From Owenia fusiformis (taxonomy: Eukaryota; Annelida; Polychaeta; Sabellida; Oweniidae): a DNA stretch of 64,000 nt. A program made the position numbers and the translations under genes. Each line of letters begins with the position of its first letter. Position 1 is the stretch's first letter. This document shows positions 39,201 through 64,000 of this stretch, piece by piece. The notes under the pieces were generated by a model. It was not told where the DNA came from. It saw only the letters and a program-made list of their open reading frames with translations, and ran no database searches. Location of the stretch: positions 55,383,885-55,447,884 of the forward strand of contig CAIIXF020000001.1 of the NCBI GenBank assembly GCA_903813345.2, given 5' to 3'.

Positions 39201-42200
39201 GATCTGACACTGATGTATACATCAGGATGACACCATGTGGTCAAGAAACATGTGTTACACAGGTACAGGTTGGTACAGGTGATTCTGATGTTGTTGTCCA
39301 TGCACCTTACACTAATAACTCTGATGTTGTTGTGTTCGATGGTGAGGGCAATGAGCTTGACTTCTCAAGTAGCAATGATTCAACTGTAGCACTTGATAAT
39401 TCAACTACTGTTACTAATACAGATGGTAACACAGTTATTATTACCAACACTGATGATGGCACTGAGACAACTGTTACTGTAAATGATAACGGAGACTTAG
39501 ATGTAGAAATCACCACTCCAACAGACACTTGCTCAGCTGGTGTAACTGGCATGGCAGGATCTTGTGATGGTGATACTGATAATGAGATCCCAGATGGTAA
39601 TGGTGGATATGTTGATGCTGACGATATCACTACTGATGATCTTACCAATATGGCAAATGATAGTAATGTTGGTGGTTCAGGATCTGGATCTGGAAGTGGA
39701 TCTGGATCTGGAAGTGGATCTGGATCTGGATCTGGATCAGGAACAGGATCTGGAGATGATGGTACTAAATTTGTCTATGAATATGAAGATGAAAATGGTA
39801 CAACTTATCATGAACCTGAAGATCTCACACCCACTTGCCCAGCTGGTTACTTTGGTACTGATTGTAGCATTTTCTTAGAGGAAGAATCACCCAACAATGA
39901 TGACAACTCTACAGCTGGTGTTAATCCTGATGGTACCATTACCACATTTGATGGTGTTACATATGACCTTGATCAGCCTGGTGAATTCCCTCTGGTTAAC
40001 ACAACTGATATGAATGTCACTGTTACACAAACTCCATGTGGCGATTCAGTGTGTACTACAGAAACAACTGTAGTGACAGACAATGGTGGAGTCATCATTC
40101 ACACTGGCACTCCACCTCCTTCAACTGGAAATCTTACAGATGGACTCCCACCTGGAACTGGTGGTGGTACAACTGTCACTGATGGTGAAGGAAACCCGGT
40201 CGATGTAACCCCAGGTGGAAGTCACAGTGAGGGTGATTTGACTGTAACCAAGAATGCTGATGGAACTGCATGGATTGTAACCGATGGTTCTGGAAACACA
40301 GTAACAATCACAGATGTTAGTATCATTGATAATTCTGGAACTGTGGTTAATATATCACCAGGTGGAACGACTACAATTGGCGATATGACTGTCACAAGAA
40401 AGGATGAACTTACATATGTAGTAAGTACTACCTCTGGTGATTCAGTTACTGTAACAGTATCCAAGCCTACTGATACAGTTATCACAGATAACGAAGGGAA
40501 TCCTATTGGTACCACACCAGGATCAACAGGCACTGTAGGTGATATGACCATCACTACTGATAGTAATGGTGATACTACAATTACTGATGGATCATCAGGC
40601 ACCACTGTGACAGTCACTGACACAGGTATTACTGATGATGATGGCAATGTTGTTCAGACTCCCCCAGGGAGTGGCACATCTGTTGGAGATGGTGTCACTG
40701 TTACACGAGTGGATGAAGATACAGTTGTTGTCTCTGATGATGATGGCAACGAGGTGACAGTTACAGTTCCTACAACACCTGTGAATGAGACTGTTGTCAC
40801 TGATGGTAAAGGTAATGAGATCCCAATTACACCTGGAGGTGGAGGCGTAACTGTTGGTGATGGTGATACAACAATTGAACAACCAGATGATGATACAACC
40901 ACAATAACAGATAGTGATGGAAACACAATTACCATTACAGATACTAGAATCACAGATAATGATGGTAATGAGATTAACATTACACCTGGTGATGAAACCA
41001 CTGTTGGCAATACAACTATCAAACGAATTGATGAAGACACTTATGTTGTAACTGATGGAGATGGTAATGAGATAATTGTTACTGTTGAAACACCCACTGA
41101 TACTGTCATTACTGATGGTGAAGGCAATGAAGTGGATCTTACTCCAGGAGGTACAGGAACTGTTGGTGATATGACTGTCACAAAAGATGGGGATACAACA
41201 ACTGTGACTGATGGAACTACAACAGTAACTATTACATCAACTGGTGTTACTGATCAAGATGGTAGTCCAGTTGATATCACTCCAGGAGACACTACAACTG
41301 TTGGTGATCTTGATGTGTACAGAGTGGACTCTGATACACATGTCATTACTGATGGATCCGGAAATGATGTAACTGTCACAATTCCATCCACACCCAATAA
41401 ACCAACCTCGACTGGTGAAGAAGTAACTGTAACTGACAGCAATGGTGACCAAATAACTATTCCATCTGGAGGAAGTGAAGATGTAGGTGATATGACTGTT
41501 ACTCGAAATGCTGATGGGTCTTACACTATAACTGATGGCTCCTCAAGTAGTACTGTTAATGTATCAGGAACTGGTATCACAGATGGTACTAATGCTGTTA
41601 ATATTTCACCAGATCAGACAACCCATGTTGGTGATATGGCAATATACAGACTTGATGAGGATAATTATGTGATTACTGATGGCACATCTGGTAGCACAGT
41701 CACAATTAATGTACCACAAACAACAGACACAAACATTGTTGATGGTGATGGTAACCCTGTAGATACTACCCCAGGTGATTCTATTGTTGTTGGTGATTTA
41801 ACAGTCTCTGAAGCTTCGGATGGATCTATCACTGTTACAGATAGTACATCTGATGATTCAGTTACAATCAAGGATACTGGTGTCTTTGGAAATGATGGCA
41901 CAGTTGTAAATGTTTCACCAGGTGAAACAGCTACAGTTGGTGATCTTACTGTCCAACGTATTGATGAAGATACCTATGTCATCACTAGTGGATCTGGAAA
42001 TGATATTACTGTCACTGTTCCAACAACCACTGAGACACATATCATCGATAACGGTGGTAATGTGATTGATCTTACACCAGGAGGAAAAGATACTGTGGGT
42101 GACTTGACAATCACCGAAGGACCTGATGGTAAATCATACACAGTAAAGGATGGATCATCTGGTGTAACTATTATTGTTGATGGTACCGGCGCAAGTGATG

Positions 42201-45200
42201 GATCTGGAAATAATCTTGATATCCCTGTTGGAGGCAGTACAACAATTGACGATGTCTCTATCACACGTGTGGATAAAGATACTTATCAGATTTCTGAAGA
42301 ATCATCTGAAAGTGAAATCACTGTAACAGTTCCATTTGTTGAAGAGACAGTAACTGTTATCAGAGACTCCAACGGTGATGTGGTCGATACCACTCCAGGA
42401 ACAGATGGAACCACAGTGGGTGACTTGACCATTTTACAAGATGAAAATGGCAAGTACACTATAACTGATGGATCTTCTGGAAGCACCATACATATCATGG
42501 GTACAACTATTACTGATCACGAAGATAATAAGATGGGTATTTCAGTTGGTGGAGTCATAACTGTTGGTGAGATAGTTGTTCAGCAGGCCTCTGATGACAC
42601 ATTTGTTGTCTCTGACACCTCATCTGGTACACAGATTATAGTGACTGTTACAACACCAACATCTGGGCCTGAAACTTATGTTACTGATCATGAAGGTAAT
42701 ATAATTGACCTCGATGATGGAGAAAGTACAACTGTTGGTGATGTTACTATAACAAAGACAGGTGATGACACTTATGAGGTTGAGGATACCTCAACAGGTA
42801 GTGTAGTAACTGTCTCTGGACATGGAGATGGTGACTCGGGTGATGGCTCAGGTAGTGGTGGCTCTGGAGGATCTGGAGGTAGCTCAGGCAGTGATGGTAC
42901 TGAATCTGATAACACTACCCTCTCTGTTCAAGTTACTGTTCCCAATGACCAGTGTGATGCTTCAACAAGCACTCTCACTGGTTCCTGTGATGGCAACCTA
43001 GACAATGAGTTCCAAGATAGTGATGGAAATGATGTCCCAATAGATCTTGTTGATGATGACGCAGTAGAGGAATCTGCTGCTGCTAACATTGTGAATGAAT
43101 ATCATTCGGAAGACTCTGATACCTTTACAGGAAATAGCACTCATTCCATTACAACTATTACTGGTGACAGTGAAGTCACAAACTATGATGGTTCAACATA
43201 CACACTGACAAGTCCTGGTGAATATTCATTAGTGAATACTGATACCATTGATGTTTATGCAAGAGTTGTACCTTGTGGTGAAGCTACTTGTGTCAACCAG
43301 GTATGGTTATCAACTGATGACAGTGATGTTGTATTCCACGCTCCTTACTCTGCTGCAGGACATATTGTAGTGTTTGATGCAGCTGGAACAGTCCAACATT
43401 TAACATCTACAACAGTAATGGACCCAAGTATGAATGTTAAACCAGTTGGAAAGGATGGGTTTAATATAACTGATTCTGCAGGAAGTGTAATCATTTTGAA
43501 GGAAGATACCAATGGATTCATTACTGTTTCTGCCATTATACCCAAGACCAGCTGTGCACAATCATCTGGAGATCTTGCAGGCACATGTGATGGTAATAAA
43601 TTCAATGATGTGGATTCTCAGGATGACATTACAGATAAACCAGGTACAGATAACTGTGCTTCTTGCAACATTGGTTCATCTGATAACTCAAGCTTTGTGT
43701 ATACATATACAACCCCAACTGGAGTTGTGTATGAAGAGCCAGAGGAATTCACAGGCTCTTGCACATGTGGCTATTATGTTGAAGATTGTTGTGTTGAGAT
43801 TGTTACCCCTGGTGGAAATGGCACCCATGGAGAGACATCAATTGTTAATGGTACTTTTACAACTTATGACGGTGTTCAATATGATATTGAAATAAGAGGA
43901 GAATATGAGTTCTACAGCAATAATGATACTAACACTAGTGTCTATATTAGGATGACACCATGTGGTCAGAAGACATGTGTAACACAAACCCAAATAAGCA
44001 TTGGAGATACAGATATCATTGTGCATGCACCATATACACCAGGTGGTGATCTTGTTGCATTTGATGCTGATGCACAAGTAATTGATTTCAGTGACTCATC
44101 ATCTGTTCACCTTGATGACAGTACAACTGTTACTGAAGTTAGTGGTGATGAGATCATTGTCACCAATTCTGATAATGGCATAGAGGCAACTATCAGTGTT
44201 AATGACGATGGATCTCTAGATGTTGTCATAACTACACCAACAGACACTTGCTCGGCTAGCTCTGGCTTGTCAGGATCTTGTGATGATAATACTAATAATG
44301 AGATCCCAGATGGTAATGGTGGATATGTTGATGCTGATGATATCACTACTGATGATCTAACTAATATGGCAGATGATAACAATGTAGGTGGTTCAGCATC
44401 TGGATCTGGAAGTGGATCTGGATCTGGAAGCGGATCATCTGGAGATGGATCATCTGAAACTAATTTTGTGTACAGTTACACAGATGAAAATGGTACAACA
44501 CACAAAGAACCTGAAAATATTGTTGCAAAGTGCCCAGCTGGATTCTATGGTGCTGACTGTAGTATTGCATTAGAGGACACCTCATCTGGTTCAAATACAA
44601 CATCAACAGCAAGTGTCAATGATGATGGATCAGTCACTACATTTGATGGTGTAAATTATCCTGTTGGAACATATGGAGAGTTCACACTCGTCAACACATC
44701 GAATGTTGATGTAAGTGTGGAGCAAGAACCTTGTGGCAACACAGTGTGTACCACTGGAACATCTGTAATAACAGAAAATGGTGGTGTCATAATCCATACT
44801 GGCACTGGTACTGAATCTGGAACTGGCTCTGGGAGTGGAACAGGATCAGGATCAGGAAGTGGATCAGGGTCTGGAACTGGATCTGGAAATGCAACTGATG
44901 TAGGTGTAAGCATCACAGATCAAAGTGGCAATGATATCAACCCAGCACAGGGACAGACTGAAACAGTTGGTGATTTCATCATTGAAAACACAGGTGATGA
45001 CACATTCACAGTAACTGATACTTCGTCTGATATTACCATAACTGTTTCAGACACAAGTATAACCAATGATGCTGGAAGAGTGGTAAATGTATCGCCTGGA
45101 AGCAGTTTCACCAATGGTGATGTTACTGTTACTAGAACAGCTGAAGATACATATACCATAACGGAGGGTTCAGATAGCACTGAATTAGATGTCATAATTC

Positions 45201-57200: not shown

Positions 57201-60200
57201 AATCCATTATCAAAGTAACTGGAACTGTCATTACTGGAAATGGCAATGTGATTAACATTACACCAGGAGGAAGTGCCACTGTTGGAGATATGACCATTGC
57301 TCGTTTGGATGAAGACACTTATGTAATATCTGATGCCTCATCTGATGGTGAGGTAACATTCACAGTTACACCACCAATGAGCACAGATAATACTATAACT
57401 GACCAGCAAGGTAACACAATTACACCAAGTTCTGGTGGAAGTGAGACATTGGGTGATTTGACTGTTACTACAAGCAGTGATGGTACAAGTCAAACAGTAA
57501 CAGATGGCTCCTCTGGAACAAGTGTTACGTTCAGTGATACTGGTGTTACAGACAATAATGGAAATGTTATTAATGTATCTCCAGGAGAGAACAAAACTAT
57601 TGGTGATGTGACTATTCACAGAGTAGATGAGGATACTTATGAAATATCTGATGAATCATCTGGTACCGAAATGACAGTTACAGTTCCTACAAACACAAAA
57701 CCAGTAGCAACTGATGGTAGTGGAAATTCCATTGATGTCACACCTGGAGGTGAGGGAGAATCTGTTGGTGATCTGACAGTCTCACAAGGCAACGATGGTA
57801 GTTACACAGTACACGATGGTTCATCTGATCACTCTGTAACAATTACTGGAGATGGAGTTGTTGATGGCAATGGTAATTCAATTGATATGCCTGTCGGGGG
57901 AACTGCAACTCTTGGTGATATAACCATAACAAAGATAGATGAGGACACTTATGTTGTATCTGATGGATCCTCTGGAAGTGAAGTCACTGTGACTGTTCCT
58001 GTAACACCACCTGGATCAGGCTCATATATAACTGATCATGAAGGTAATCCAATTGATCTTGATATAGGAGACAGTACTACTGTTGGTGATTTAACCATTA
58101 CCAAAGTTGATAATGACACACTTGAAGTGACTAATGATGAAACTGGTAGTATTGTTACAGTCTCTGTTGTACCTGGTGATGGTACAGGATCTGAAACTGG
58201 ATCTGGAACAGGATCTGACACTGGGTCTGGAACAGGATCTGGAACTGGATCTGTAACAGGATCTGACACTGGGTCTGGAACAGGATCTGGAACTGGATCT
58301 GGAACAGGATCTGACACTGGATCTGGAACAGGATCTGGAACTGGTAGTACTCTAGAGGTTGACGTAACTGTATCTAATGATGTTTGTGAATCAACTACTT
58401 CTACACTTTCTGGATCTTGTGATGGAAACATCAATAATGAGTTTCAAGACAGTAATGGAAATGATATTCCAATTGATCTTGTCACTGGAGATAACGTTCT
58501 AGAAGCAGCTTCAACAACAAAGGTAAATGATTACTATGATGACTCTGGTGATGATTTCAATGGAAACTCTACACATTCTGTAACATCCTTATCTGGTAAT
58601 AGTTCCATAACTACCTATGATGGTACAACCTTTGATGTGAACACACCTGGTGAATTTGTCCTTGTTAACACTGATACATCTGAGGTAGATGTCAAGGTAA
58701 TTCCATGTGGAGATTCCCTCTGTGTGAGCCAGGTTGCAATTACACCTGGTACAGACACTGCTGGTACTGGCACTGGTGATGAAACAGATGGTACTACATT
58801 TGTTGATAACAATGGCAATGTTATTGATCCTTTATCTGGTCAGAGCATAACTGTAGGGGAAATAACAGTAACCCATAATTCAGATGGCTCATATACTATA
58901 ACTGATTCCTCTTCAGGAAACACAGTTACTGTTACTGATAATGGAATTATTGATAATAATGGCAATGCAGTTAATATCCAATCAGGTTCAAGTGTTACAG
59001 ATGGAGAAATAACAATCACTAGAGTTGATGAAGATACATACAAGGTCTACAAAGAGTTAACTGGAAGTGGAGTCACTGTCACTGTAACATCACCATCTGA
59101 TACAACAGTCACTGACAGTCAAGGAAATGAGGTTGTCCCATCAGGTGGTACCCATACAATTGGAGATATGGATATAACTCAAGGCTCTGATTCTGATACT
59201 ACAACAGTCACTGATAAGACAAGTGGAAGCACTGTAACTGTTACAGATACTGGTATCATTGATGATGAAGGTAATATGGTGAATATTCCAATAGGCGATA
59301 GCACAACTGTTGGAAACATTACTATTGTCCGTATTGATGATGATACATATGTTCTAACAGATGGATCTGGAGAAGAAGTGACAGTTACCATTCCAACAAC
59401 CCCAACAACAGAAACTATTGTAACTGATCACCAAGGTAATAATGTTGATACATCACCCGGCACAAATACAACTGTTGGAGACATGACTATTTCTACACCA
59501 GATGAAGGGGATGCAGTTTCAATTACTGATTCATCATCTGGAAGTACCGTAACAATAACTGATACAAGTATCACTGGAAGTAATGGTAATGTTTTGAATA
59601 TTCCACCAGGTAGTAACAAAACAGATGGTGATATCACTGTTACAAGGATTGATGATGATACTATTGTAGTATCAGATGGATCATCAGGTGGTAATGTTAC
59701 AGTCACAATTCCAACACCTTCTGAAACTGTTGTTACTGATCAACAGGGCAATCCACTTGATCTTGGATCAGGAACCGATGCCACAGTTGGTAATTTCACT
59801 GTGTCTAAAGATGATGACAATTCAATTACTACATCTGATGGATCTGGAAACACAGTCACTGTTACTGATACAGGAGACATAACTGACCAAGATGGTAATG
59901 ACTTAGATCTGTCCTCAGGAGACAATACCATTGTTGGAGGAATTATAGTTACCAAGGTAGACAGTGATACTGTTGTGGTTTCTGATGACTCTGACAATGA
60001 ATTAATCATCACCGTTGTGCCTGATGAAACTACTGGAACATCCGATGGATCTGACTCTGGTGGATCCTCACCAATCACTGACAGCAATGGCAACAGTATC
60101 AACCTCTCAAATGGACAAAGTTCAACAGTTGGTGACTTAACTGTAGCCCAAACTGATGATGGCACTTATGTTATAACAGACAGCTCATCTGGAAATACAG

Positions 60201-63200
60201 TCACTGTTACAGGATCTGTTGTTACTGATAACAATGATAATATTTTATATATCACACCTGGAGGTACTCAGACAACAGCAGATGGTGATTTTACTGTGAA
60301 ACATCCTGGTGATGACACATATGTTGTAACTGCTACTTCTGATGGAAGTAAGATTGAAATCACTGTTCCGTCTACTGCAGTACCAGAAATTGTCCTCTCT
60401 AATCGACAAGGAAATGAAATTGATGTTTCACCAAGTGGTAGTGAGACAATTGGAGACTTGACTGTAAGCCTTTCTGCTGATGGTGAGACATTCACAATAT
60501 CCGATGGATCTTCAGGAGGCAGTATAGGGGTGAGTGGAGAAACAATCACAGGTAGCAATGGTGATGCAATTAGCATTTCTCCTGGTTCAACTACACAAGC
60601 TGATGGTGTGTCTATCAAACGAGTTGATGATGATACTTATGTGGTGTCTACTGGATCGCCTGCAAATGATATCATAGTTACAGTACCTACAACTACTGTT
60701 TCTGGTGTAACTGATCAACAAGGTAATACCATTGATGTATCACAGGGATCTCCTTCCACAGAGGGTGATATAACTGTCACTGAGGTTATACCTGGTACAT
60801 ACAGAGTTGTTGATGGCTCATCTGGAAGCTCAGTTACCATATCAGGAACTGGTGTAACAAGTAGCACTGGCAATCATGTAAATCTTTCACCAGGTGGTAG
60901 TAAACAATTTGGTGATATGACTGTCAGGCAACTTGATTCAGATTCTTATGTGGTATCTGATGGTTCATCTGAAAGTGAGGTCACTATCACTGTACCAGCA
61001 CAACCAGCTGGTACTGTGATAACTAATGATGCAGGAAACCTTATTGGGGTTGCCCCTGGAGTTAATGCATCAGTAGGTGGTATGACTGTGTCTAAGCCAG
61101 ATGGCAACACACATGTATTTACTGACACAAATGGAGATGGAGTTACAATTTCAACTGCACCAGGAACACCTGGAGCTGTTATCACAGATAACAATGGAAA
61201 TAATGTTGACTTATCAGAAGGAGGAAGTACCACAGTTGGTAGTCTAACAATTGGAAAAGATGATGAGACCACAATCACAGTAACAGATGATTCTGATAAT
61301 ACTGTGACTATCACAATTCCCCCTCCAACATCAGACGGCATTACTGTTCACGCTCCTTACACACCTGGTGGTGATATTGTAATATTTGACTCTAATGGAA
61401 ACCCCATCACAACTGATACTGGATCAGGTACTGGAACAGGATCTGAGTCTGGTACAGGATCTGATATCACTGTCACTACTGAAACAACAGAAGATGGTGA
61501 AACAGAGTATCATGTTCATAATCCAGATGGTACTGAAGTTATAATTACGGAAGATGACAATGGGTACTTGAATGTTGAGGTTGTAACACCAAAGACTTCT
61601 TGCAGTGGTAACACTGGAGATCTTGCAGGCTCTTGTGATGGAAACACTTTCAATGACATTGATAGTGACTTGAACTCAGAGGAAGACATTTCTGAGGCTT
61701 GCACAAACTGTTTGGTTGAAGGTGATGAGGATTCTACACCATTTGTGTATACATATGAAACACCAACTGGTGTGACGTATGAGGAACCTCAGAATTTCAA
61801 CGGTTCATGCATTTGTGGATTCTATCTTGACGATTGTTGTGTGACAATAGTAGACACAAATACTAATGATACCCATGCTACAACATCTATAGTAAATGGA
61901 ACATTTACCACATATGATGGTGTTCAGTATGATCTTGATGTCAGAGGAGAGTATGAGTTCTACAACAACAATAATACTAATTCAAGTGTTCATGTTAGAA
62001 TTACTCCATGTGGGGATACTACATGTGTTTCCCAGACACAAGTTAGTACAACTGATTCTGATGTGGTTGTGCATGCACCATACACTAATGATAGTGATGT
62101 TGTTGTATTTGATGGTGAGGGTAACCCCATTGATTTCTCTGGAGATACTTGTACATCAAATTGCACATCTACATCTATTACTAGTGATGATGGTAGTACC
62201 ATTGTTAGTCTTACAACAGGGAAGGAAGCAACAGTAAATGATGTTACTATTTCTCGTACTGGTGAAGATACATATGAGGTAACTGATCCATCAACTGGAA
62301 ATGGATTTACTATAACTACAACAATAACATCTGATGGAATTACAAGCACAGATATTACAGATACAGATGGCAATTCTGTTGACCTCTCTCCTGGAAGTTC
62401 TGAGACAATTGATGGTGTCACTCTGACTCAGGTTGATGATGATACCTATACTGTATCTTCTGGATCATCTGACAGTGAAATAACAATCAATGTCCCAACA
62501 CCTACATCAACACAGGAAGGCACTGGAAGCACAACTACTATCACTGATGGAAATGGTAATCCTGTCAATACCTCACCTGGACAAAGTATAACTACTGGAG
62601 ATGTAACTGTTTCTCAACCTACAGATGGCACAATTGTGATCAATGATGGGTCCTCTGATAATAGTTCCATAACAATAACAGATTCTGGAATAACTGGTAG
62701 TGATGGCAATGTTATCAATATTTCACCAGGGAGCAACACCACTTCTGGCAATTTGACAATTGTGAGGATTGATGAAGACACATATGTTGTGGTTGATAGT
62801 GATGGAAATGAGGTTACCGTCACTGTAACATCTCCCACCGAAACTGTCATTACTGATAGCAATGGTAACAAAGTTAATGTCTCTGGTGAATCTGCTGCAA
62901 CAGTCGGAACATTGACAGTATCTCAAAATGCTGATGATACAATCTCAGTAACTGATAGTGGTACTGGCACAACTATTACAGTAACACCAACAGGCCTTAC
63001 AGACAATGATGGCAATAGTGTCAATCTGTCACCAGGGACTACTGCAGTAATCAGTGGTCAAACTGTAATAGAATTGATGAGGACACACTAGTCATTGTTG
63101 ATAGCACCTCTGAGAATGAGGTGACAATCACAATACCTGGACCTTCAGATCCTGTTTTGACTGATGAAAATGGAGATCCAGTCACTATTCCAACAGGTGG

Positions 63201-64000
63201 TTCAACCAATGTTGGCAATCTGGAGGTTGGTGAAACTGAAGATGGTGATGGATACACAATTGGAGATGGAGAATCTGGAACAACTGTTAATATCACTGGA
63301 GATGGTATTATTGATGGCGATGGAAATATTATTGACCTTTCAAATGGAGAAAGTACACAAATTGGTGATAATACTAACATCACAAGAGTGGATGATGACA
63401 CTGTTAAAGTAACTGATGTATCAACAGGAAGTGAAGTAACAGTAACAGTTCCAGAAACACCACCTGTTGATACAGGAAGTACATCTTCAATTGTTGACAA
63501 TAATGGCACTGTAGTTGATCTCAAAAAGGGAGAGAATACTACAATTGGAGATTTCGATATCACACAAGGTAAGGACAGTACCTCAATTACTGATAACTCT
63601 TCAGACAGTACAATTGTCATATCAGGAACTGGTATAACTGATGATGATGACAATATTATCAACATTTTACCAGGAGACAGTGTAACTGTAGGTGATATGA
63701 ATATTACAAGGTTGAATGAGGAGGAATATGAGGTAACAGAGGGATCTGATGGAAGCACTGTTACTGTTACAGTGACATCACCAACTGAAACTGTCATCAC
63801 TGACCAGCATGGAGATATTATTGACGTCTCACCTGGATCTAGTGATACAGTTGGTGGTTTGACCATTTCACAGGCTGATGATGGCACTATTACAATAACA
63901 GATGATGATACTGGAAGCAGTGTCACTGTTTCAGAGACTGGACTCATTGATGATAATAATAATGTGATCAATATTCCTATTGGTGGTTCAACAACAGTTG
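43..64000 (+). CDS. Giant multidomain extracellular protein gene, 43 exons, partial at both ends
   Basis: One gene model explains the window. Coding exons are joined by 42 GT...AG introns whose phases agree at every junction, giving about 17,790 codons here. Order of regions: at least 17 glycine-rich beta-helix-like units, about 50 EGF-like modules, laminin-type EGFs, a YFGY.N domain, a VWD domain with LamG-like and C8-like segments, then degenerate VWD units interleaved with Asp/Thr/Ser/Gly-rich arrays. EGF, laminin-EGF, VWD and LamG domains are extracellular in known families, so the product is probably secreted or at the cell surface; its start, signal peptide and end lie outside. I do not recognise a named gene. 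Matrix, adhesive or mucus-gel function is inference. Reading is interrupted once, by an apparent one-base deletion near 63070. Two adjacent genes at the exon 42/43 junction is a weaker alternative, since that junction splices in phase. Confidence 0.85.
571..805 (+). CDS. Exon 2: first glycine-rich core (unit 1, part 1)
   Basis: TTCATTTTCAG acceptor and GTAAGT donor; phase 0 in, phase 1 out. It encodes HGGQGGRNN, then GIYYGNMLEPTDFGS, then GGGRIQIEA...TVDG. The LEPT..GS motif and the strand after it recur in almost every unit. The intron after TVDG lies at the same place as the intron after LNVEG at 9134. Confidence 0.8.
1025..1156 (+). CDS. Exon 3: glycine-rich core (unit 1, part 2)
   Basis: GTTGCAG acceptor and GTCAGT donor; phase 1 on both sides. 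It encodes TISVDGADG, then GGASGGSIYL and FHGKGIIRSHGGKG. This is the VDG.I...GADG / GGSI.I / GHG.I...GG strand ladder typical of the units. Confidence 0.8.
1352..1563 (+). CDS. Exon 4: glycine-rich core end (unit 1, part 3)
   Basis: TTCCCAG acceptor and GTATGC donor; phase 1 in, phase 0 out. It encodes GGGSGGRIAIYY, FQGSHTTYGGKG, then GAAGTVYIEKEDP and LIVDNGEP. GAAGTVYIE closes the glycine-rich core in nearly all units; VDN starts the following linker. Confidence 0.8.
1750..2407 (+). CDS. Exon 5: strand-rich linker between units 1 and 2
   Basis: TCCTACAG acceptor and GTAAGA donor; phase 0 in, phase 1 out; about 219 residues. The sequence has regular hydrophobic strands separated by short turns, with little glycine clustering until the final DGPG. 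The repeated pattern (..I.GAITG.DEFTI.., GTLNARKIVI, VEEKGIIDLD) suggests a continuous beta-helix or similar solenoid. No catalytic motif is visible. Confidence 0.75.
2704..2902 (+). CDS. Exon 6: glycine-rich core (unit 2, part 1)
   Basis: AAATTCCAG acceptor and GTATGT donor; phase 1 in, phase 2 out. It encodes ATHGGEGGRGYG, then FYEPTEVGSGTPGN and GGGAIKIM...NVYGVITA. It carries the EPT..GSG motif in its full form. The last codon (Asn) is split across the intron. Confidence 0.8.
3177..3259 (+). CDS. Exon 7: glycine-rich core (unit 2, part 2)
   Basis: A short 83-nt exon with acceptor TTCATCTAG and donor GTAAGC; phase 2 in, phase 1 out. It encodes GKTATCDCGGAAGGSIWI and ASENILVTG. Two cysteines (CDC) are unusual for this part of the protein. 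The GGSIWI strand matches other units and fixes the frame. Confidence 0.75.
3541..3737 (+). CDS. Exon 8: glycine-rich core end (unit 2, part 3)
   Basis: TATAATTCAG acceptor and GTAAGA donor; phase 1 in, phase 0 out. It encodes SITANGGNGYGSY, a run of glycines, LIALYYKYGG, GTVTTYGG and KGAAGTVYISVNDP, which completes unit 2. Confidence 0.8.
4081..8110 (+). CDS. Exon 9: 4.0-kb exon with glycine-rich units 3, 4 and 5
   Basis: GTGATTTCAG acceptor and GTATGT donor; phase 0 in, phase 1 out; 1,343 codons without a break. It opens with AIVDNNEVS, continuing the linker after unit 2. An RGDS tetrapeptide lies at 4207-4218. Three cores follow: about 4930-5430, 6100-6560 and 7215-7790, each with GPG.G, a GSYGG or HGG run, a GGGSGGSI-type strand and a closing G.I.I/GTVF-type strand. 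GDGTG (near 5584) and GDYTG (near 6720) are early forms of the GD.TG signature. Unlike units 1 and 2, no intron interrupts these cores, which suggests intron loss or duplication from an intronless copy. Probably a rigid extracellular stalk; no enzyme motif seen. Confidence 0.85.
8268..8614 (+). CDS. Exon 10: linker leading into unit 6
   Basis: TTTGTAG acceptor and GTAAGT donor; phase 1 in, phase 0 out; about 116 residues. It encodes LITNVRDLIIAPNMTTVF, a form of the LTGV..L.I..GA...F motif, then strand-rich sequence, and GAKIDMVGGGYGSAQGEG at the start of the next glycine-rich core. Confidence 0.8.
8930..9134 (+). CDS. Exon 11: glycine-rich core (unit 6, part 1)
   Basis: TGCTTTTAG acceptor and GTAAGT donor; phase 0 in, phase 1 out. 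It encodes VSGVGTGGGYGSEGG, DPASMGSGGGNSN, GGAGGGLLTLKV and LNVEG. The exon itself begins with GTAAGT, so the acceptor is directly followed by a perfect donor-like sequence (see findings). The protein pattern supports including these bases in the exon. Confidence 0.8.
9439..9619 (+). CDS. Exon 12: glycine-rich core (unit 6, part 2)
   Basis: CTTGCCAG acceptor and GTGAGT donor; phase 1 in, phase 2 out. It encodes TINVNGADGTNNGG, GGCVLVEAVKFTGHG, ISANGGYGSGNGGGG and GGRIRITLDD: the VNGADG / GHG.I.ANGG / GGRI ladder. Confidence 0.8.
9894..10126 (+). CDS. Exon 13: end of unit 6 and start of linker
   Basis: TATTTCCAG acceptor and GTATGA donor; phase 2 in, phase 1 out. It encodes YDFSGTITVFGGGND, then AGPGTVYTIEG, then LFIIGDTEG and a DSDFMYDYMEIKG stretch. 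The last matches the EFDE.EI.G motif in later linkers. Confidence 0.8.
10294..14306 (+). CDS. Exon 14: 4.0-kb exon with glycine-rich units 7, 8 and 9
   Basis: TGACTTTCAG acceptor and GTAAGT donor; phase 1 in, phase 0 out; 1,337 full codons. Cores lie at about 10840-11320, 12010-12490 and 13210-13740. Each has EPT-like or YQPV/YRPE spacing, GGGSGGS, GHG/GKG strands and GPGSV.- or GGGTAYV-type closings. Linkers carry the signature GDKTGWMYVRDQQ, GDGTGLLRVRKNQ, GDRTGLFQLHNTH and GDRTGRLHFNARH in order. These are followed by a D.GAEL..P motif and then an EIGGMLTGA..L-type motif. No intron interrupts three successive units. Function unknown; extended beta-solenoid is inferred from strand periodicity. 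Confidence 0.85.
14514..14682 (+). CDS. Exon 15: linker into unit 10
   Basis: ATTTTACAG acceptor and GTAAGT donor; phase 0 in, phase 1 out. It encodes DIKYEASMEAIAFEV, then LALLDSNGGGLDDL, GAGHASYGGN. GAGHAS.GG is the entry motif of the glycine-rich core. Confidence 0.78.
14836..15054 (+). CDS. Exon 16: glycine-rich core (unit 10, part 1)
   Basis: TTTGCAG acceptor and GTATGT donor; phase 1 on both sides. It encodes NGGGAGGIAYGSLYEPT, EGSTGGGTNGGKGGGKIKI, then FLLDGLVEVDGNDG and GGGSGGSVWIKAG. It carries the canonical YGSLYEPT motif. Confidence 0.8.
15302..15666 (+). CDS. Exon 17: glycine-rich core (unit 10, part 2) and linker
   Basis: TATTTCAG acceptor and GTATGT donor; phase 1 in, phase 0 out; about 121 residues. 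It encodes DMRGHGDISSSGGKG, GGGAGGRISLHT, GGMMAYGAPG, GGPGSIFVED, then a charged strand-rich linker ending ALHFDTVLLEKM. Confidence 0.8.
15855..16215 (+). CDS. Exon 18: linker with GDKTG signature
   Basis: ATATTTCAG acceptor and GTAACT donor; phase 0 in, phase 1 out; about 120 residues. It carries ILGDKTGFLHPQDGD, VDLGSEIWLSQDF, then HIAGIYNLTLSEETEMHIG. These correspond to the GD.TG, D.G.EI..P and G.L.GV..L.I..G motifs of the longer units in exon 21. Confidence 0.8.
16471..16648 (+). CDS. Exon 19: linker
   Basis: TGTATTCCAG acceptor and GTAGGG donor; phase 1 in, phase 2 out; about 59 residues. It encodes VTLEAESRMVHNSNLKL, RYASEFMAKTILIEAG and IHLEGEAKLDV, i.e. the L.VKY.G...M...I...GD..LEG pattern immediately before a glycine-rich core. 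Confidence 0.75.
16850..16971 (+). CDS. Exon 20: start of glycine-rich unit 11
   Basis: TGATTCCAG acceptor and GTCAGT donor; phase 2 in, phase 1 out; about 40 residues. It encodes GPAAEQGLGAGD and GVGAGHGGYGGGAD, the GPGAG..HGG.GG entry into the core. Confidence 0.75.
17152..23361 (+). CDS. Exon 21: 6.2-kb exon with glycine-rich units 11-15
   Basis: TTGTTATAG acceptor and GTAAGT donor; phase 1 on both sides; 2,069 full codons. It holds the most regular repeats of the region. Cores start near 17190, 18411, 19683, 20931 and 22158 (GSGGG... motif); the last four starts are 1272, 1248 and 1227 nt apart, so one unit is 409-424 residues. A unit reads: EFDEME.TG..L...HP; F.GDRTGLFHLR.NQ; V..S...TEAPCSF.VD.GAEI..P; G.LTG...L.IE.GA......STAQ.A; ENGTY..VTE.GNFSFST; L..KYQG.L.MN; VESEG...LDGKG..AE.GPGA; HGG.GG; YGS.Y...E.GSGGGNG...GG.GGG; G.DGTGSNAGGGSGG; N.TGHG.I.V.GG; GGGG.GGR..VH; Y.GGE; GAAGT.Y.E. 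The near-invariant APCSF cysteine has no obvious partner within a unit. Solenoid structure is inferred. Confidence 0.88.
23569..23705 (+). CDS. Exon 22: glycine-rich core (unit 16, part 1)
   Basis: TTTCACAG acceptor and GTAAGG donor; phase 1 in, phase 0 out; about 45 residues. It encodes IYDTLYEPTEPGSGGGGAY and GGAAIMIDAAL, with the EPTE.GSGGG motif. Confidence 0.8.
23991..24159 (+). CDS. Exon 23: glycine-rich core (unit 16, part 2)
   Basis: TCTTATCTAG acceptor and GTAAGG donor; phase 0 in, phase 1 out; about 56 residues. It encodes KMVVDGTVTSAGVIG, GAGGAGGTIMITTVHIRGHG and IQANGGEG, i.e. the VDG.V...G / GG.I.I / GHG.IQANGG ladder. Confidence 0.8.
24469..24773 (+). CDS. Exon 24: glycine-rich core end (unit 16, part 3)
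   Basis: GTGTTGTTAG acceptor and GTAAGT donor; phase 1 in, phase 0 out; about 101 residues. It encodes SGGGAGGRVAIHL, FLGVAEALGGTG, HGSCGTVYVQQT, a charged linker, and YIFDQFHISGHACVQLD, the EFDE..I.G motif with an extra cysteine. Confidence 0.8.
25013..26585 (+). CDS. Exon 25: last glycine-rich unit (17) fused to the first EGF-like modules
   Basis: TATTGTTTCAG acceptor and GTAATT donor; phase 0 in, phase 1 out; 524 codons. The first two thirds hold the linker signature LSGDGTGLLEIQNGQ, VDVQGGLNGIKDLVI, then a core with GAGCQNKGGSGGGHGG, VGSGGGNCENN, GGGSGGSVWIDG and GRGSLAANGGTG. A cysteine cluster (GCGGCCNYCYG, about 25894-25923) interrupts the core's final GGGGGRI segment. From about 26046 EGF-like modules begin: CSGHGTW...CECDSGYMGSYCE, CSGNGECN...CDCDAGYTGYNC and four more, the sixth completed in exon 26. 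One exon thus joins two architectures without an intron between them. Confidence 0.87.
26767..27356 (+). CDS. Exon 26: EGF-like modules 6-12
   Basis: CATTCCTAG acceptor and GTAAGT donor; phase 1 in, phase 0 out; about 196 residues. It encodes DCPGEPDCMGRGTCD, CMNCQGDWYGPACN, CVCDQICWHGDGC, ECTNHGNCNPDGNC, a GWHGTYC end, then CSSQGECN, CECFAGWTGVYC, CMDRGTCD and CLDCHADWMGPACD. The six-cysteine EGF spacing is clear. The MGRGTCD and MDRGTCD modules are four modules apart. Confidence 0.87.
27490..27643 (+). CDS. Exon 27: EGF-like modules 12-14
   Basis: TGCTCTCCAG acceptor and GTATGT donor; phase 0 in, phase 1 out; about 51 residues. It encodes GWAGVGCDSECSDHG, ICVCDYVTGWKGDLCDVPG and LDCSGRG. 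The exon splits EGF modules rather than bounding them. Confidence 0.82.
27950..28076 (+). CDS. Exon 28: EGF-like modules 14-15
   Basis: TATCATTAG acceptor and GTGAGT donor; phase 1 in, phase 2 out; about 42 residues. It encodes CESSTHTCTCEPGWQNIGC, DCPGTPDCNDHGFCNATM. The final Asn codon is completed in exon 29. Confidence 0.82.
28396..29081 (+). CDS. Exon 29: EGF-like modules 15-22
   Basis: TAATTTTAG acceptor and GTAAGA donor; phase 2 in, phase 1 out; about 229 residues. It holds nearly two full four-module cycles. Successive openers are HEC..ECANGH, ECSEHGS, DCTGNGECNAATHEC, DCSGQGTCD, ECTHGEQDPPNSGIC, ECSDHGSCVDGEC and DCSLHGVCNSATNEC. DCTGNG and DCSLHG are 384 nt (128 residues) apart. 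An RGD tripeptide lies in the loop GWRGDVC at 28595-28603. Confidence 0.88.
29419..29525 (+). CDS. Exon 30: EGF-like modules 22-23
   Basis: TATTTTAG acceptor and GTAAGT donor; phase 1 in, phase 0 out; about 35 residues. It encodes WTGAACDIPDCPDGCGGNG, YCNGTDRDLPVCECLE. Confidence 0.82.
29782..29959 (+). CDS. Exon 31: EGF-like modules 23-25
   Basis: ATTTTTAG acceptor and GTAAGA donor; phase 0 in, phase 1 out; about 59 residues. It encodes GWFDLDCQSRCEYGTW, QYCECESCHAGEFCDLEC and SGHGTCVNGTCDCEREYV. NGT is a possible N-glycosylation site. Confidence 0.82.
30250..30420 (+). CDS. Exon 32: EGF-like modules 25-27
   Basis: GATTTCTAG acceptor and GTGAGA donor; phase 1 on both sides; about 57 residues. 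It encodes SWAGPKCEETGCPG, CSGHGECNSLLGECTC, YPGWQSDACDVPKCPGDPEC. It begins a run of nine exons flanked only by phase-1 introns. Confidence 0.83.
30646..32166 (+). CDS. Exon 33: EGF-like modules 27-42
   Basis: TCATTTTAG acceptor and GTATGT donor; phase 1 on both sides; about 507 residues. It carries roughly four full cycles of the four-EGF super-repeat without an intron. The type-4 openers lie at about 30915 (DCMGRGTCNQATGEC), 31323 (DCTGRGSCNGATGEC), 31707 (DCSGHGSCILATQQC) and 32109 (CSGHGTCNKASRTC); spacings are 408, 384 and 402 nt. RGD occurs in two type-3 modules: NRGDLC at 31278-31286 and GRGDYC at 31659-31667. The DP/GTQTPMDSGICACD form marks type-2 modules. Confidence 0.88.
32391..32546 (+). 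CDS. Exon 34: EGF-like modules 42-44
   Basis: CTCATCTTAG acceptor and GTAAGT donor; phase 1 on both sides; about 52 residues. It encodes WYGEACSVPDCPGEPDC, NGNGICDASSTSDQPKC, ICGMGWMGLGCNIACVNG. Confidence 0.83.
32791..32991 (+). CDS. Exon 35: EGF-like modules 44-45, with an enlarged loop
   Basis: TCTATTTTAG acceptor and GTAAGA donor; phase 1 on both sides; about 67 residues. It encodes CACFDCFTGPDCNSTC and ADHGSC, then an unusually long loop of about 30 residues rich in V, S, T and D before TCSCDSGWWG. Several N-x-S/T sites lie in this exon (NST, NES, NAS, NTT). Confidence 0.82.
33337..33507 (+). CDS. Exon 36: EGF-like modules 45-47
   Basis: CTTTTCAG acceptor and GTAAGA donor; phase 1 on both sides; about 57 residues. 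It encodes IECTIRGCPGIGSSC, SDHGYCTLADQSCDCDAG, WKGDGCHIPDCPN and DCDGRG. Confidence 0.83.
33803..34054 (+). CDS. Exon 37: EGF-like modules 47-49
   Basis: TTTTTTTAG acceptor and GTAAGT donor; phase 1 on both sides; about 84 residues. It encodes YCDGNQYDPPRCTNCTLSMG, HGEENPPFSALCECDSCY, ECSNVGNCTNGACECDYGF and KGDVCELINCPG: modules of types 1, 2 and 3 in order. Confidence 0.84.
34403..34537 (+). CDS. Exon 38: EGF-like modules 50-51
   Basis: TGATTACAG acceptor and GTAAGT donor; phase 1 on both sides; about 45 residues. It encodes EPDCSTYGTCLRKNN, LCVCNPGFQGDDC and FICPGTPYCSDRG. Confidence 0.83.
34746..34934 (+). CDS. Exon 39: laminin-type EGF-like modules
   Basis: CTACCAG acceptor and GTAAGT donor; phase 1 on both sides; about 63 residues. 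It encodes CALPDG...CVCDHGFDGDACDRC, VDKFVGDDCERCQDGYIGYN. The C-x-x-C pairing after the EGF turn (CDRC, CERC) is the laminin-EGF pattern rather than the plain EGF pattern used upstream. Confidence 0.8.
35190..35303 (+). CDS. Exon 40: laminin-type EGF-like module
   Basis: ATTTTCCAG acceptor and GTAAGC donor; phase 1 on both sides; about 38 residues. It encodes CICYDDITNGHWVG, CDQCEHGFNLPTCIDCHP, with the CDQC..GF...C..C spacing of laminin-EGF modules. It closes the EGF region. Confidence 0.8.
35625..35916 (+). CDS. Exon 41: YFGY.N domain, first part
   Basis: TTCTTTTAG acceptor and GTAAGT donor; phase 1 in, phase 2 out; about 97 residues. After a short Cys segment (HHCTIPCINN) comes FNCVVQQDDGKYVVYFGYDN, then NVYVDAGPDNMLNG and LFRPGQHKYAF. 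The order YxxYFGYxN / V.V..G..N / F.PG / VSW.L (the last in exon 42) resembles a small beta-rich domain seen in varied extracellular proteins. I do not know its accepted name. Assignment is by motif memory only. Confidence 0.7.
36150..36267 (+). CDS. Exon 42: YFGY.N domain, second part
   Basis: CTTTCAG acceptor and GTGAGT donor; phase 2 in, phase 0 out; about 39 residues. It encodes ALSNATVSWSLAYKASN, then DVTADISADNLCSETPVY. VSWSL followed by a T/A-rich strand completes the domain begun in exon 41. NAT is a possible N-glycosylation site. Confidence 0.72.
36557..64000 (+). CDS. Exon 43: giant exon (at least 27.4 kb) with VWD units and VTD repeat arrays
   Basis: TTATTTCAG acceptor; phase 0 in; no donor is needed before the window ends. 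The frame is open from 36557 to 63090, about 8,840 codons, then meets TAG at 63089-63091. The repeat pattern resumes in another frame at about 63070 and stays open to 64000, so one base appears to be missing. Order: EGF-like modules; VWD (36786-37399); LamG-like (about 37459-38090); C8-like cysteines (about 38210-38400); then A, B and C units with VTD arrays, listed separately. Composition is dominated by T, D, G, S, V and I, with few Lys or Arg, so this part is strongly acidic and rich in possible O- and N-glycosylation sites. No transmembrane segment is visible. The 3' end of the exon is outside the window. Confidence 0.88.
36587..36785 (+). other. EGF-like modules before the VWD domain
   Basis: CECIHGYWGESCQNECPGG, then PCFGHGNCDKTTGVCTC and CLECMPGWTGTDC. 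The spacing is EGF/laminin-EGF-like and links the upstream EGF region to the VWD region within the giant exon. Confidence 0.8.
36786..37399 (+). other. VWD (von Willebrand factor type D) domain
   Basis: About 205 residues. The N-terminal motif GGHYMTFDGASYNL matches the HY.TFDG..Y signature of VWD domains. The C-terminal motif ICSISKGLLGNCDGNITNDF matches GLCGN.DG...NDF. Between them are beta strands such as DDFVWRQDSAGLYVV and FLNVQVLS. In mucins, VWF and zonadhesin such domains act in disulfide-linked assembly; here the usual CGLC-type cysteine pair is reduced to a single Cys. This is the best-preserved VWD in the window. Confidence 0.85.
37459..38090 (+). other. LamG/pentraxin-like (concanavalin fold) domain
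   Basis: About 210 residues. Strands YDVTIEFIFKVDE, then DYGTWYHLAIILQKDDGFLI, FYLYDEAGEYN, LALGQWNPP, then GCIDEFRIWNARLS and ANYWKFNEGYKGY. The order W.HLA / L.LG / G.IDE.RIWN.......L..YW.FNEG is characteristic of LamG-like jelly-roll domains. These usually bind glycans or proteins, sometimes with calcium; the ligand here is unknown. Confidence 0.82.
38210..38400 (+). other. C8-like cysteine segment
   Basis: EAFCASVFGAESFKTLCSKV, then FSFYQQQCEYNGV and VAYAFAAQCQILD. The pattern C...........C..V....F...C.......A.A..C.... resembles the C8 domain that normally follows VWD. It has fewer cysteines than a full C8, so the call is tentative. Its place after the LamG-like domain suggests that LamG was inserted between VWD and C8. 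Confidence 0.55.
38438..39118 (+). other. A1: degenerate VWD unit with EGF stub
   Basis: Starts TITTYDGTTYPLNTTGEFVF (VWD opening). Continues with VVPCPE...CVNQVWLA, VVIHTPYSSGGDLVVFDGEGN, DFTVTKVGGNEYHITD and LDVTV, then DIAGTCDGDTTND (VWD closing motif). It ends FVYTYTTPTGVTYEEP and a CTCGYYLDNCC stub like the end of an EGF module. Intact copy, not split by a VTD array. Confidence 0.8.
39119..39919 (+). other. B1: degenerate VWD unit with Ser-Gly run and EGF stub
   Basis: Starts TFTTFDGVEYDLDVRGEYEF, then IRMTPCGQETCVTQ, VVVHAPYTNNSDVVVFDG, TDTCSAGVTGMAGSCDGD and IPDGNGGYVDADD. A long SG repeat (39673-39755) separates this from FVYEYEDENGTTYHEP and the stub CPAGYFGTDCS. Intact copy. Confidence 0.8.
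39673..39755 (+). repeat. Ser-Gly minisatellite in B1
   Basis: Tandem GGATCTGGATCTGGAAGT-like units of 6-18 bp encode a long run of SG dipeptides, flanked by acidic residues (ANDSN before, DDG after). Serglycin-like SG runs near acidic residues are typical glycosaminoglycan attachment regions; that role is inferred. The B2 copy at 44390-44457 is shorter and B3 has nearly lost it, so length is variable. Confidence 0.85.
39920..40168 (+). other. C1 N-terminal half: start of a degenerate VWD unit
   Basis: TITTFDGVTYDLDQPGEFPL, then CGDSVCTTETTVVTDNGG and IIHTG. The unit stops here and the first VTD array follows; its closing GSCDGN motif appears only at 42920, about 2.75 kb later. Confidence 0.78.
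40169..42817 (+). repeat. VTD array 1
   Basis: About 880 residues of half-units of about 50 residues, in pairs of about 100. Half-unit types alternate: VTD..GN.VD.TPGG..TVGD.T and ITDNDGN..NI.PG..T.VG followed by TR.DEDTYVVTDGSG. Typical ends are VTVTVP or VTVTVETP, then the next VTD. Acidic, no cysteine seen. DxDGN turns could bind calcium (inference). Confidence 0.85.
42818..42919 (+). repeat. Gly/Ser/Asp linker after array 1
   Basis: HGDGDSGDGSGSGGSGGSGG followed by more S, G, D and N codons. A low-complexity hinge between the array and the second half of unit C1. Similar linkers follow arrays 2 and 4. Confidence 0.8.
42920..43153 (+). other. C1 C-terminal half: end of the split VWD unit
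   Basis: VQVTVPNDQCDASTSTLTGS with CDGNLDNEFQDSDGND following, then PIDLV, an acidic stretch and NSTHSIT. GSCDGN...NEF is the VWD closing motif missing from the C1 N-terminal half upstream. Confidence 0.78.
43154..43837 (+). other. A2: degenerate VWD unit with EGF stub
   Basis: VTNYDGSTYTLTSPGEYSL, CGEATCVNQVWLS, VVFHAPYSAAGHIVVFDAAG, DLAGTCDGNKFND, FVYTYTTPTGVVYEEP and CTCGYYVEDCC. Collinear with A1 and not split. Confidence 0.8.
43838..44614 (+). other. B2: degenerate VWD unit with short Ser-Gly run and EGF stub
   Basis: TFTTYDGVQYDIEIRGEYEF, IRMTPCGQKTCVTQ, IIVHAPYTPGGDLVAFDADA, LSGSCDDNTNNEIPDGNGGY, a short SG run (44390-44457), FVYSYTDENGTTHKEP and CPAGFYGADCS. Collinear with B1. Confidence 0.8.
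44615..44800 (+). other. C2 N-terminal half: start of a split VWD unit
   Basis: VTTFDGVNYPVGTYGEFTL, CGNTVCTTGTSVITENGG and IIHTG, collinear with C1 N-terminal half. A Ser/Thr-Gly linker follows, then VTD array 2. Confidence 0.78.
44801..44889 (+). repeat. Thr/Ser-Gly minisatellite before array 2
   Basis: GGAACTGGATCTGGAAGT-like tandem units encode GTGTESGTGSGSGTGSGSG. The same kind of sequence lies after array 4, so SG/TG minisatellites mark several array edges. Confidence 0.82.
44900..48280 (+). repeat. VTD array 2
   Basis: About 1,127 residues of alternating VTD half-units: VSITDQSGNDINP, VTDQQGNVLDLAAG, ITRLDEDTFVV and many more. Around 46446-46700 there is a variant with TYITDHEGNPIDLLPGESE and an acidic spacer DDSDTDGDSDDDG. 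The same HEGNPI variant recurs near the end of arrays 1 and 4. Confidence 0.85.
48281..48376 (+). repeat. Gly/Ser/Thr linker after array 2
   Basis: GSGTGTGDNTSTGGSTGDST followed by more of the same type. A low-complexity hinge before the second half of unit C2, in the same position as the linkers after arrays 1 and 4. Confidence 0.8.
48377..48610 (+). other. C2 C-terminal half: end of the split VWD unit
   Basis: IQIDVTVPNDECADSSNTLT, then GSCDGNLDNEFQDSDGND and PIDLVTKDDAA, ending NSTHSVT. Closely similar to the C1 and C3 C-terminal halves. Confidence 0.78.
48611..48889 (+). other. A3 N-terminal half and acidic linker
   Basis: VTNYDGTEIDLDTPGEYVI, then CGDSTCVNQVSIST. The unit then breaks off into an Asp-rich linker (DDTTDDNTDDNTGDGGDD, about 48775-48889) and VTD array 3. 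Its continuation, the VVFHAPYS strand, is at 54347. Confidence 0.78.
48890..54318 (+). repeat. VTD array 3, the longest
   Basis: About 1,810 residues, roughly 18 paired units, with the array inserted inside unit A3 (between CVNQ and HAPYS strands). Internal gly-ser-rich spacers occur, e.g. SGGSGGSDGSGGSGGSSG near 52676-52745. An RGD tripeptide (VTRGDITITR) is at 51314-51322. One half-unit near 50280-50340 is divergent, with a lone Cys (DELCGIMITMTNTGF). Confidence 0.86.
54347..54847 (+). other. A3 C-terminal half
   Basis: VVFHAPYSTNGPLVVFLPNG resumes exactly where the A3 N-terminal half stopped. Then IAGSCDGNKYND, FVYTYVTPTGVVYEEP and CVCGFYADDCC. The join across array 3 rebuilds a unit collinear with A1 and A2. 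Confidence 0.78.
54848..55591 (+). other. B3: degenerate VWD unit, Ser-Gly run mostly lost
   Basis: TFTTYDGVQYELEVRGEYEY, IRMTPCGQKTCVTQ, VVIHAPYTHGSDSVVFDGDG, GMAGSCDGDTDNEIPDGNGG. Where B1 has a long SG run, B3 has only GGSGSESGSSDSDDD (about 55396-55440). Then FVYEYTDEDGTTHKEP and CPSGFYGADCS. Confidence 0.8.
55592..55821 (+). other. C3 N-terminal half
   Basis: TITTFDGVEYNITKPGEYSL, CGDSVCTTGTSITTDNGG and IIHTG, then a short GTGNTGDD linker into array 4. The closing half of this unit lies at 58348. Confidence 0.78.
55822..58170 (+). repeat. VTD array 4
   Basis: About 783 residues in paired units; neighbouring VTD starts near 56450 and 56757 are about 306 nt apart (102 residues). Contains the usual VGDMTVT, TR.DEDTYV, DGSSGSEVTVTVP motifs and ends with the HEGNPIDLD variant also seen near the end of array 1. 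Confidence 0.85.
58171..58347 (+). repeat. Thr/Ser-Gly minisatellite after array 4
   Basis: Tandem 12-bp units (GGATCTGGAACA, GGATCTGACACT, GGATCTGGAACT and close variants) arranged in higher-order blocks of about 48 bp. Encodes GTGSETGSGTGSDTGSGTGS-type repeat. Near-identical copies imply recent expansion and likely length polymorphism. Confidence 0.88.
58348..58582 (+). other. C3 C-terminal half
   Basis: LEVDVTVSNDVCESTTSTLS, then GSCDGNINNEFQDSNGND and PIDLVTGDN, ending NSTHSVT. It completes unit C3, split by array 4. Confidence 0.78.
58583..58792 (+). other. A4 N-terminal half
   Basis: ITTYDGTTFDVNTPGEFVL, CGDSLCVSQVAITPG, then a short GTGTGDETDG linker. As in A3, the unit stops before its HAPY strand and a VTD array follows. 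Confidence 0.78.
58793..61333 (+). repeat. VTD array 5
   Basis: About 847 residues of paired VTD half-units lying inside unit A4, at the same internal point as array 3 in A3. Later half-units (about 60400-61300) are more divergent, e.g. VLSNRQGNEIDVSPSG and VTDQQGNTIDVSQGSP. Confidence 0.85.
61337..61885 (+). other. A4 C-terminal half
   Basis: ITVHAPYTPGGDIVIFDSNG resumes unit A4. A TG/SG insertion (about 61416-61465) follows, then EYHVHNPDGTEVIITEDDNG, DLAGSCDGNTFND, FVYTYETPTGVTYEEP and CICGFYLDDCC. Confidence 0.78.
61886..62167 (+). other. B4 N-terminal half
   Basis: TFTTYDGVQYDLDVRGEYEF, VRITPCGDTTCVSQ, VVVHAPYTNDSDVVVFDG, then a small Cys pair (CTSNC) and VTD sequence. This is the first B unit to be split by a VTD array; its closing half should lie beyond 64000. 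Confidence 0.76.
62168..64000 (+). repeat. VTD array 6, running off the window and containing the frameshift
   Basis: Paired VTD half-units continue to the last base. They read in the exon frame to about 63069 (VNLSPGTTAVISGQTVI) and then, one base out, from RIDEDTLVIVDSTSENE at about 63070 to the end. The second segment has no stop in about 930 nt and keeps every repeat motif, so it is coding in origin. Confidence 0.82.
63062..63091 (+). other. Apparent one-base frameshift and premature TAG
   Basis: The exon frame runs into TAG at 63089-63091 after VIELMRTH, which fits no repeat. Reading from 63070 one frame over gives RIDEDTLVIVD, a standard VTD motif. One base seems to be missing near 63068-63072. 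Sequencing or assembly error, or a recent mutation, would each explain it; the sequence alone cannot decide. Confidence 0.8.

Follow-up and report, generated by a model that had tools for sequence, protein, structure and literature searches.

The VTD repeat of a giant Owenia fusiformis gene is homologous to the central beta-meander of its VWD domains

We analyzed a 64,000-nt stretch of the genome of the annelid Owenia fusiformis (contig CAIIXF020000001.1, positions 55,383,885 to 55,447,884; hereafter the window), to which the next 59 kb downstream was added; coordinates above 64000 lie outside the window. The locus encodes a giant and probably secreted protein in which VWD domains are arranged as A-B-C triplets, and it contains long arrays of a short repeat, VTD. 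This repeat corresponds to the beta-meander at the center of the VWD domain itself, comprising strands 8-13 and ~46 residues. We consider it likely that this segment was multiplied in place in the C units and planted as pairs in neighboring units, with the VWD nodes closing around the arrays.

Results

A hidden Markov model (HMM) built solely from the 108 array repeats and tested against 2000 shuffles matches the centers of A1, B1, A3, and B3 above every shuffle, scoring 18.6 bits on the B1 center and 22.6 bits on the own segment of A3 (0/2000 shuffles each). The match to the B2 center is weak (19/2000 shuffles), and none was obtained in A2, A4, or the first VWD domain (VWD0). In a profile–profile comparison, the repeat aligns with P = 1.9e-8 to columns 80-126 of the units, a span covering strands 8-13 in the model of A1, and 60 column-shuffled controls fall far lower; the match recurs when repeat pairs are used (probability 93.4). 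Moreover, the predicted strands of the A1 own segment and of the 15 C3 repeats agree in register in 591 of 655 cells, the next-best register, shifted by one residue, giving 78% strand agreement. As the N half of VWD shows no similarity to VTD (score 12.5; 200 shuffled controls reach 18.4), the match is specific to the VWD center. On the same scores, we rejected the idea that VWD is an internal duplication with a VTD-like N half, which would have explained the repeat pairs described below. PF00094 is not among the 25 families listed, of 85 in all, for 50 array pairs, and with ~46 residues against 156 profile positions, a repeat can represent at most part of a VWD domain. The mean identity between repeats is 39%, and thus they are not assembly copies.

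The assignment of the A, B, and C units as VWD domains is also supported. They share the TxDG start, the PCG..C hairpin, the GxCDGN..N[DE] loop, and the beta-sandwich fold with known VWD domains (Pfam PF00094; mucins, VWF, FCGBP, and RGMB), and the matches of the array profile, the unit profile, and the fold are well above controls and therefore not due to chance. A1, B1, B2, B3, and VWD0 score above the PF00094 gathering cut-off of 22.9, and A2 and the C3 N half (18.5) score below it (Table 1); among the four split-unit parts scanned, the C3 C half and the remainders of A3 and A4 gave no score. The VWD topology used here comes from PMC10880436. WD40/beta-propeller folds took the top Foldseek ranks but were not favored, with a query-normalised template modelling (TM) score of 0.07-0.12 and a root mean square deviation of >20 A among the best 50 matches listed. 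An alternative modelling alignment misplaced the A and B units and was not used.

The units also differ from known VWD domains in several respects. In known VWD domains, the cysteine of GLCG is disulfide-bonded to one that precedes the FDG motif, whereas no cysteine lies within 20 residues before TxDG at 12 of 12 in-window VWD starts. In the D assembly of VWF and mucins, C8 and TIL domains come after VWD; at E 0.01, Pfam detected neither in the in-window open reading frame (ORF), and no TIL, LDL-receptor, or thrombospondin-1 domains in that ORF together with nine pieces; the GDPH motif of cleaved VWD domains occurs 0 times in the ORF and in the open pieces of at least 40 amino acids (aa) on the + strand from 36.5 to 123 kb. 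In addition, the center is multiplied here, or other loops are filled by arrays.

The first-pass annotation of the window had proposed that C1, C2, and C3 start, stop, and finish only after 2.3-3.4 kb of repeats, and the coordinates bear this out, with 17, 21, and 15 repeats, respectively, between start and finish. It had also claimed that, once each array is deleted, the unit becomes collinear with the copies that are not split. When the halves were aligned with the arrays deleted, this failed for the C units: the joined C1, C2, and C3 halves lack the central ~46 residues, and their scores with the A/B profile are 86.9, 79.4, and 89.5 bits. With one own repeat kept, the medians are 101.6, 93.9, and 102.5 bits, and keeping any repeat beats keeping none for 108 of 108 repeats in each unit. 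Shuffled repeats yield medians of 87.8, 80.2, and 89.7, with a slight gain in 159-176 of 300 trials, and of the 108 real repeats, 75, 73, and 57 score above the shuffled maxima of 97.8, 91.3, and 102.3. In a further set of controls, in which the halves without any repeat score 89.6, 81.7, and 93.4, the medians for reversed repeats are 90.1, 82.9, and 92.8 (maxima 99.6, 92.4, and 101.8). With other pieces of the ORF, the medians are 90.3, 82.1, and 92.8; their maxima of 134-144 are high because some pieces were judged to overlap the N halves of other units, so only the medians are useful.

Downstream, C4 carries 5 repeats, C5 carries 1, C6 carries 5 (one across a frame change), and C7 carries 1. 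With the array HMM, the single segment reaches 55.4 bits in C5 and 47.2 bits in C7 (1000 shuffles each, maximum 13.9). On C5, the Pfam VWD profile runs from residue 3 through the repeat to residue 114 (profile positions 5-114; 17.8 bits, under the cut-off), and on C7 it covers the C end alone (9.1 bits). On the homology of repeat and center and the one-repeat test, we rejected a foreign insert in the C units. Rather than projecting as a loop, as first annotated, the array in a C unit occupies the place of the unit's own beta-meander, and each repeat is a copy of it. C1, C2, and C3 each have a DHEGN-type repeat, and these three are closest to one another (62-67%). That the last repeat is the true center of a C unit was borne out only in part, as these repeats fit best in C1 and C2 but another fits best in C3, and the three rank 16th, 10th, and 14th of 108 in likeness to all six own segments.

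In the A and B units, the breaks fall where the first-pass annotation had placed them. A3 (34 repeats) and A4 (16 repeats) are interrupted between CVNQ/CVSQ and the HAPY strand; joined without the array, they score 164.3 and 152.1 bits, and one kept repeat helps A3 in 18 of 108 cases and A4 in 2 of 108. The deletion test thus identifies the A arrays as inserts and the C arrays as holding the unit's own center. B4 (22 repeats), which finishes outside the window, is broken after HAPY, where strands 9 and 10 of its own center meet; B7, further downstream, has a 46-repeat array at the same break site. In both, the first two strands of the own center precede the array and the other four follow it, with ungapped identities to B1 of 11/15 and 23/52 for the two parts in B4 and 8/16 and 28/53 in B7. 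Here, array removal does restore a collinear unit, by score for A3 and A4 and by eye for B4 and B7. The sequences of these four units support a discontinuous arrangement in which a VTD array is inserted in a VWD loop, a design that was first annotated for the C units as well and does not hold there. Likewise, the view that arrays lie inside VWD units rather than between them stands for 9 of the 10 multi-copy arrays. The tenth, of 88 repeats and outside the window, follows the CDGN loop of a complete VWD unit and is succeeded by an FVYEY tail segment; it is an array between folds, outside any VWD fold.

The repeats alternate as T1-T2 pairs. Hard clustering from random starts often missed this alternation (40-84 of 102 neighbor changes, 50 starts), and a parity-label test was therefore used in its place, with T1/T2 labels assigned by position alone and leave-one-out typing. 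This typing returned the position label of 93 of the 108 repeats; 100 label shuffles returned 53.4 on average and 70 at most. A strict alternation model trained on the in-window arrays except B4 fits 151 of the 166 repeats of B4, C4, C6, B7, and the 88-repeat array, most weakly in C4 (3/5). In the C2 array, the alternation is disturbed at 46478-47188, in the vicinity of an Asp-rich linker and two single repeats of DHEGN type. Among the 12 arrays, the repeat counts are without exception odd in C units (17, 21, 15, 5, 1, 5, and 1) and even elsewhere (34, 16, 22, 46, and 88); this rule was derived from the five in-window arrays that are closed, and the other seven arrays conform to it. As single copies are trivially odd, units share ancestry, the B4 and C6 counts each depend on one repeat merged across a frame change, the B7 count involves a broken repeat as well as two merges, and some repeats of B7 and the 88-repeat array score only 16-19 bits, this pattern is suggestive and lacks high test power.

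With a net charge of -14 per 100 residues, the arrays are acidic; they consist of 19% threonine, contain one cysteine in 5412 residues, and are flanked by Gly/Ser/Thr or Asp-rich linkers. No N-glycosylation signal emerged, sequons being fewer than in shuffles (69 versus a mean of 90.2).

Gene organization

A giant exon (36542..63088, + strand), preceded by a splice-acceptor-like TTTCAG, forms an 8849-aa open frame, 26.5 kb in a single frame. Past 63088, open frames adjoin without gaps up to 106322, which makes a coding stretch of ~70 kb, with nine frame changes that all fall between 63 and 85 kb. One of them (63055-63067) lies within a B4 repeat, whose first part is in the main frame and second part in another. 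The frame changes resemble single-base breaks and are likely assembly errors. The uncorrected ratio of nonsynonymous to synonymous differences per site (pN/pS) is 0.33-0.60 in four unit pairs, which argues for constraint. In total, 28 VWD-like units with both halves are listed in 38-89 kb. Judged by its domains and by the size of the genome, the locus appears to be an animal-type gene.

The VTD array is confined to this one locus. A 206-aa array query gave at least 105 matches in the 498-Mb genome (E up to 0.001), all at 55.424-55.486 Mb of one contig; VWD itself also occurs elsewhere, with 78 matches spread over many contigs. Relatives were confirmed neither in bacterial and archaeal contigs, against which a single 206-aa query was run, nor in viral contigs, against which the unit alignment was run.

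Table 1 Units, arrays, and related features of the locus. Coordinates above 64000 lie outside the window.
Feature	Position	Strand	Remarks
VWD0	36827..37318	+	First and canonical complete VWD domain; Pfam PF00094 45.8 bits alone; residues 81-244
A1, unsplit unit	38441..38941	+	Own center 38663-38800 resembles VTD repeat; Pfam 32.8 bits
B1, unsplit unit	39122..39631	+	Own center 39332-39493; Pfam 28.1 bits
C1 N half	39920..40111	+	TTFDG..PCG..C..IIHTG; N-half profile 94.5 bits
C1 array	40175..42826	+	17 VTD repeats replacing central segment
C1 C half	42917..43054	+	Strand 14, C..GSCDGN loop; C-half profile 70.2 bits
A2, unsplit unit	43157..43642	+	Pfam 20.0 bits, under cut-off 22.9; N- and C-half profiles
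B2, unsplit unit	43841..44347	+	Pfam 35.9 bits
C2 N half	44615..44806	+	86.1 bits
C2 array	44912..48268	+	21 VTD repeats
C2 C half	48377..48514	+	68.6 bits
A3 N half	48617..48784	+	Last strand is strand 6 (CVNQVSIST); 77.1 bits
A3 array	48899..54319	+	34 VTD repeats between strands 6 and 7
A3 remainder	54350..54664	+	HAPY strand, own center 54392-54532, C half 54536-54664; C half 59.3 bits
B3, unsplit unit	54851..55354	+	Pfam 29.9 bits
C3 N half	55601..55789	+	92.3 bits
C3 array	55829..58168	+	15 VTD repeats; modelled
C3 C half	58349..58486	+	Preceded by long Gly/Ser/Thr linker; 67.1 bits
A4 N half	58592..58750	+	CVSQ at end; 75.0 bits
A4 array	58802..61324	+	16 VTD repeats
A4 remainder	61340..61705	+	HAPY strand, own center broken by Gly/Ser/Thr run, C half; C half 65.8 bits
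B4 N half	61889..62150	+	With HAPY strand and first two strands of own center; 103.0 bits
B4 array	62177..64000, on to 65673	+	22 repeats in total, one across frame change; continues outside window
B4 C half	65824-65952		Finish of B4, after the rest of its own segment; outside window
C5	68973-69521		Natural one-repeat C unit; outside window
C7	85698-86297		Natural one-repeat C unit; outside window
88-repeat VTD array	88623-102227		Largest array, single frame; outside window

Upstream of the VWD exon, open frames with teneurin-type EGF modules (PF23106, PF25024, and PF07974) span 25004-36820, and a laminin-G-like domain (LamG; PF13385, 33.3 bits) follows the first VWD at 37358-38440. By eye, a comparable VWD, LamG-like, and EGF tail lies at ~102.5-106 kb, after the 88-repeat array. 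Short cysteine clusters (CTCGYYLDNCC and CPAGYFGTDCS), which look like EGF remnants, separate A/B and B/C units, for example at 39041-39073 and 43760-43793. Further upstream, at 4159-23369, three long open frames are rich in GGSGGGS/GAGGRI-type glycine motifs and show a repeated module by eye; none had a Pfam match at E 0.01, and no direct DNA repeats of at least 60 bases were found in 1-26000.

Discussion

According to the mechanism we propose, the central segment of the C units would have multiplied in situ, from 1 copy (C5 and C7) to 5, 15, 17, and 21, with the C arrays growing by T1-T2 pairs joined to a single founder. Blocks of whole pairs would then have been planted in neighboring units, namely, into the loop that links strands 6 and 7 of A3 and A4, into the own segment of B4 and B7 at the passage from strand 9 to strand 10, and, for the 88-repeat array, behind a domain. 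Each VWD node would retain its hairpin cysteines and CDGN loop, its two halves being held by sheet pairing, and the acidic, nearly cysteine-free array would exit and re-enter the node as a long string of small beta-modules, which would provide a matrix or adhesive fiber with a spacer or with hidden length. The array composition, together with the LamG, EGF, and VWD modules, would fit a secreted matrix, cuticle, or adhesive fiber. A bolder version, which we consider less likely than not, is that the VWD meander has become a self-propagating tandem element growing by T1-T2 pairs only; it would expand in situ to odd counts in one type of unit and enter loops of sister units as whole pairs, in even counts, with the interrupted nodes still closing and acting as force-released clamps for long hidden loops.

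Closed VWD nodes with long looped strings are favored over their main rival, a straight fiber in which the halves never meet, the nearest repeat caps each of them, and the arrays bear tension in line. A stiff array would be expected to hold its ends far apart, and each half of a split unit retains its own cysteine pair, with no cysteine before TxDG to staple the halves together. The Gly/Ser/Thr linkers that bracket the C arrays (roughly 14 to 65 residues) would suit such a fiber and are compatible with closed nodes as well. In addition, the C half is undocked in the model of whole C3, although the predicted local distance difference test values of 48-64 in the N half and 28-47 in the linker and C half are so low that the folded base of the first-pass annotation is neither confirmed nor refuted. 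However, B4 and B7 retain both parts of a single meander split at the border of strands 9 and 10, an arrangement most readily understood if the parts rejoin, and the N and C halves of C1–C3 are 60-75% alike, compared with the 39% mean between repeats; we therefore judge the straight fiber unlikely. It is possible, though somewhat improbable, that each T1-T2 pair forms a small VWD-like sandwich, the arrays then being strings of mini-VWDs and not of half-domains.

An account in which VTD is unrelated to VWD, with the arrays as foreign loops on a base that needs none of them to be complete, would describe correctly the position of the arrays in A3, A4, B4, and B7, which retain their own centers. 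Because the repeat and the VWD center are homologous, the array-deleted C units have no center, and natural one-repeat C units occur, this account is very unlikely. We likewise give little credence to a decaying or misassembled locus, with arrays inflated by assembly and a broken gene. It would accommodate the nine frame changes, including the one in the in-window B4 repeat, but not 26.5 kb open in one frame, the low identity between repeats, or the pN/pS values.

The nearest known design is that of Mlig-ap2 from Macrostomum lignano, likewise a giant secreted VWD-bearing animal protein, with an adhesive role and a large tandem-repeat core of 21 x 255 aa and 25 x 221 aa (PMC6410801 and PMC8621496). 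In the accessible parts of these two papers, the repeats form a separate core, VWD lies at the N end, TIL, LDL, and TSP1 domains are present, and repeats inside VWD are not mentioned, whereas most arrays here sit within VWD. Zonadhesin and gel-forming mucins also carry serial VWD domains in giant extracellular proteins. The arrays described here are beta-repeats derived from VWD itself. The repeats of zonadhesin and gel-forming mucins, in contrast, are known as mucin-type repeats outside the VWD folds. As in nested domains in general, A3, A4, B4, and B7 are interrupted in a loop by another element, but the insert derives from the host domain itself and is present in dozens of copies. A limited search of partly accessible literature returned no described case of a VWD domain amplifying its own part.

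Domains usually duplicate whole, whereas here part of a domain is amplified within the domain. All stages are found in one gene, from a hidden single copy (A and B units) and a strong single copy (C5 and C7) to five copies, dozens, and transplanted blocks. The locus offers a model case for the origin of new repeat families from folded domains and for the tolerance of a domain to inserts of >2,000 residues. Should the VWD nodes indeed close on their arrays, the protein would also represent a natural design for very large, releasable hidden length.
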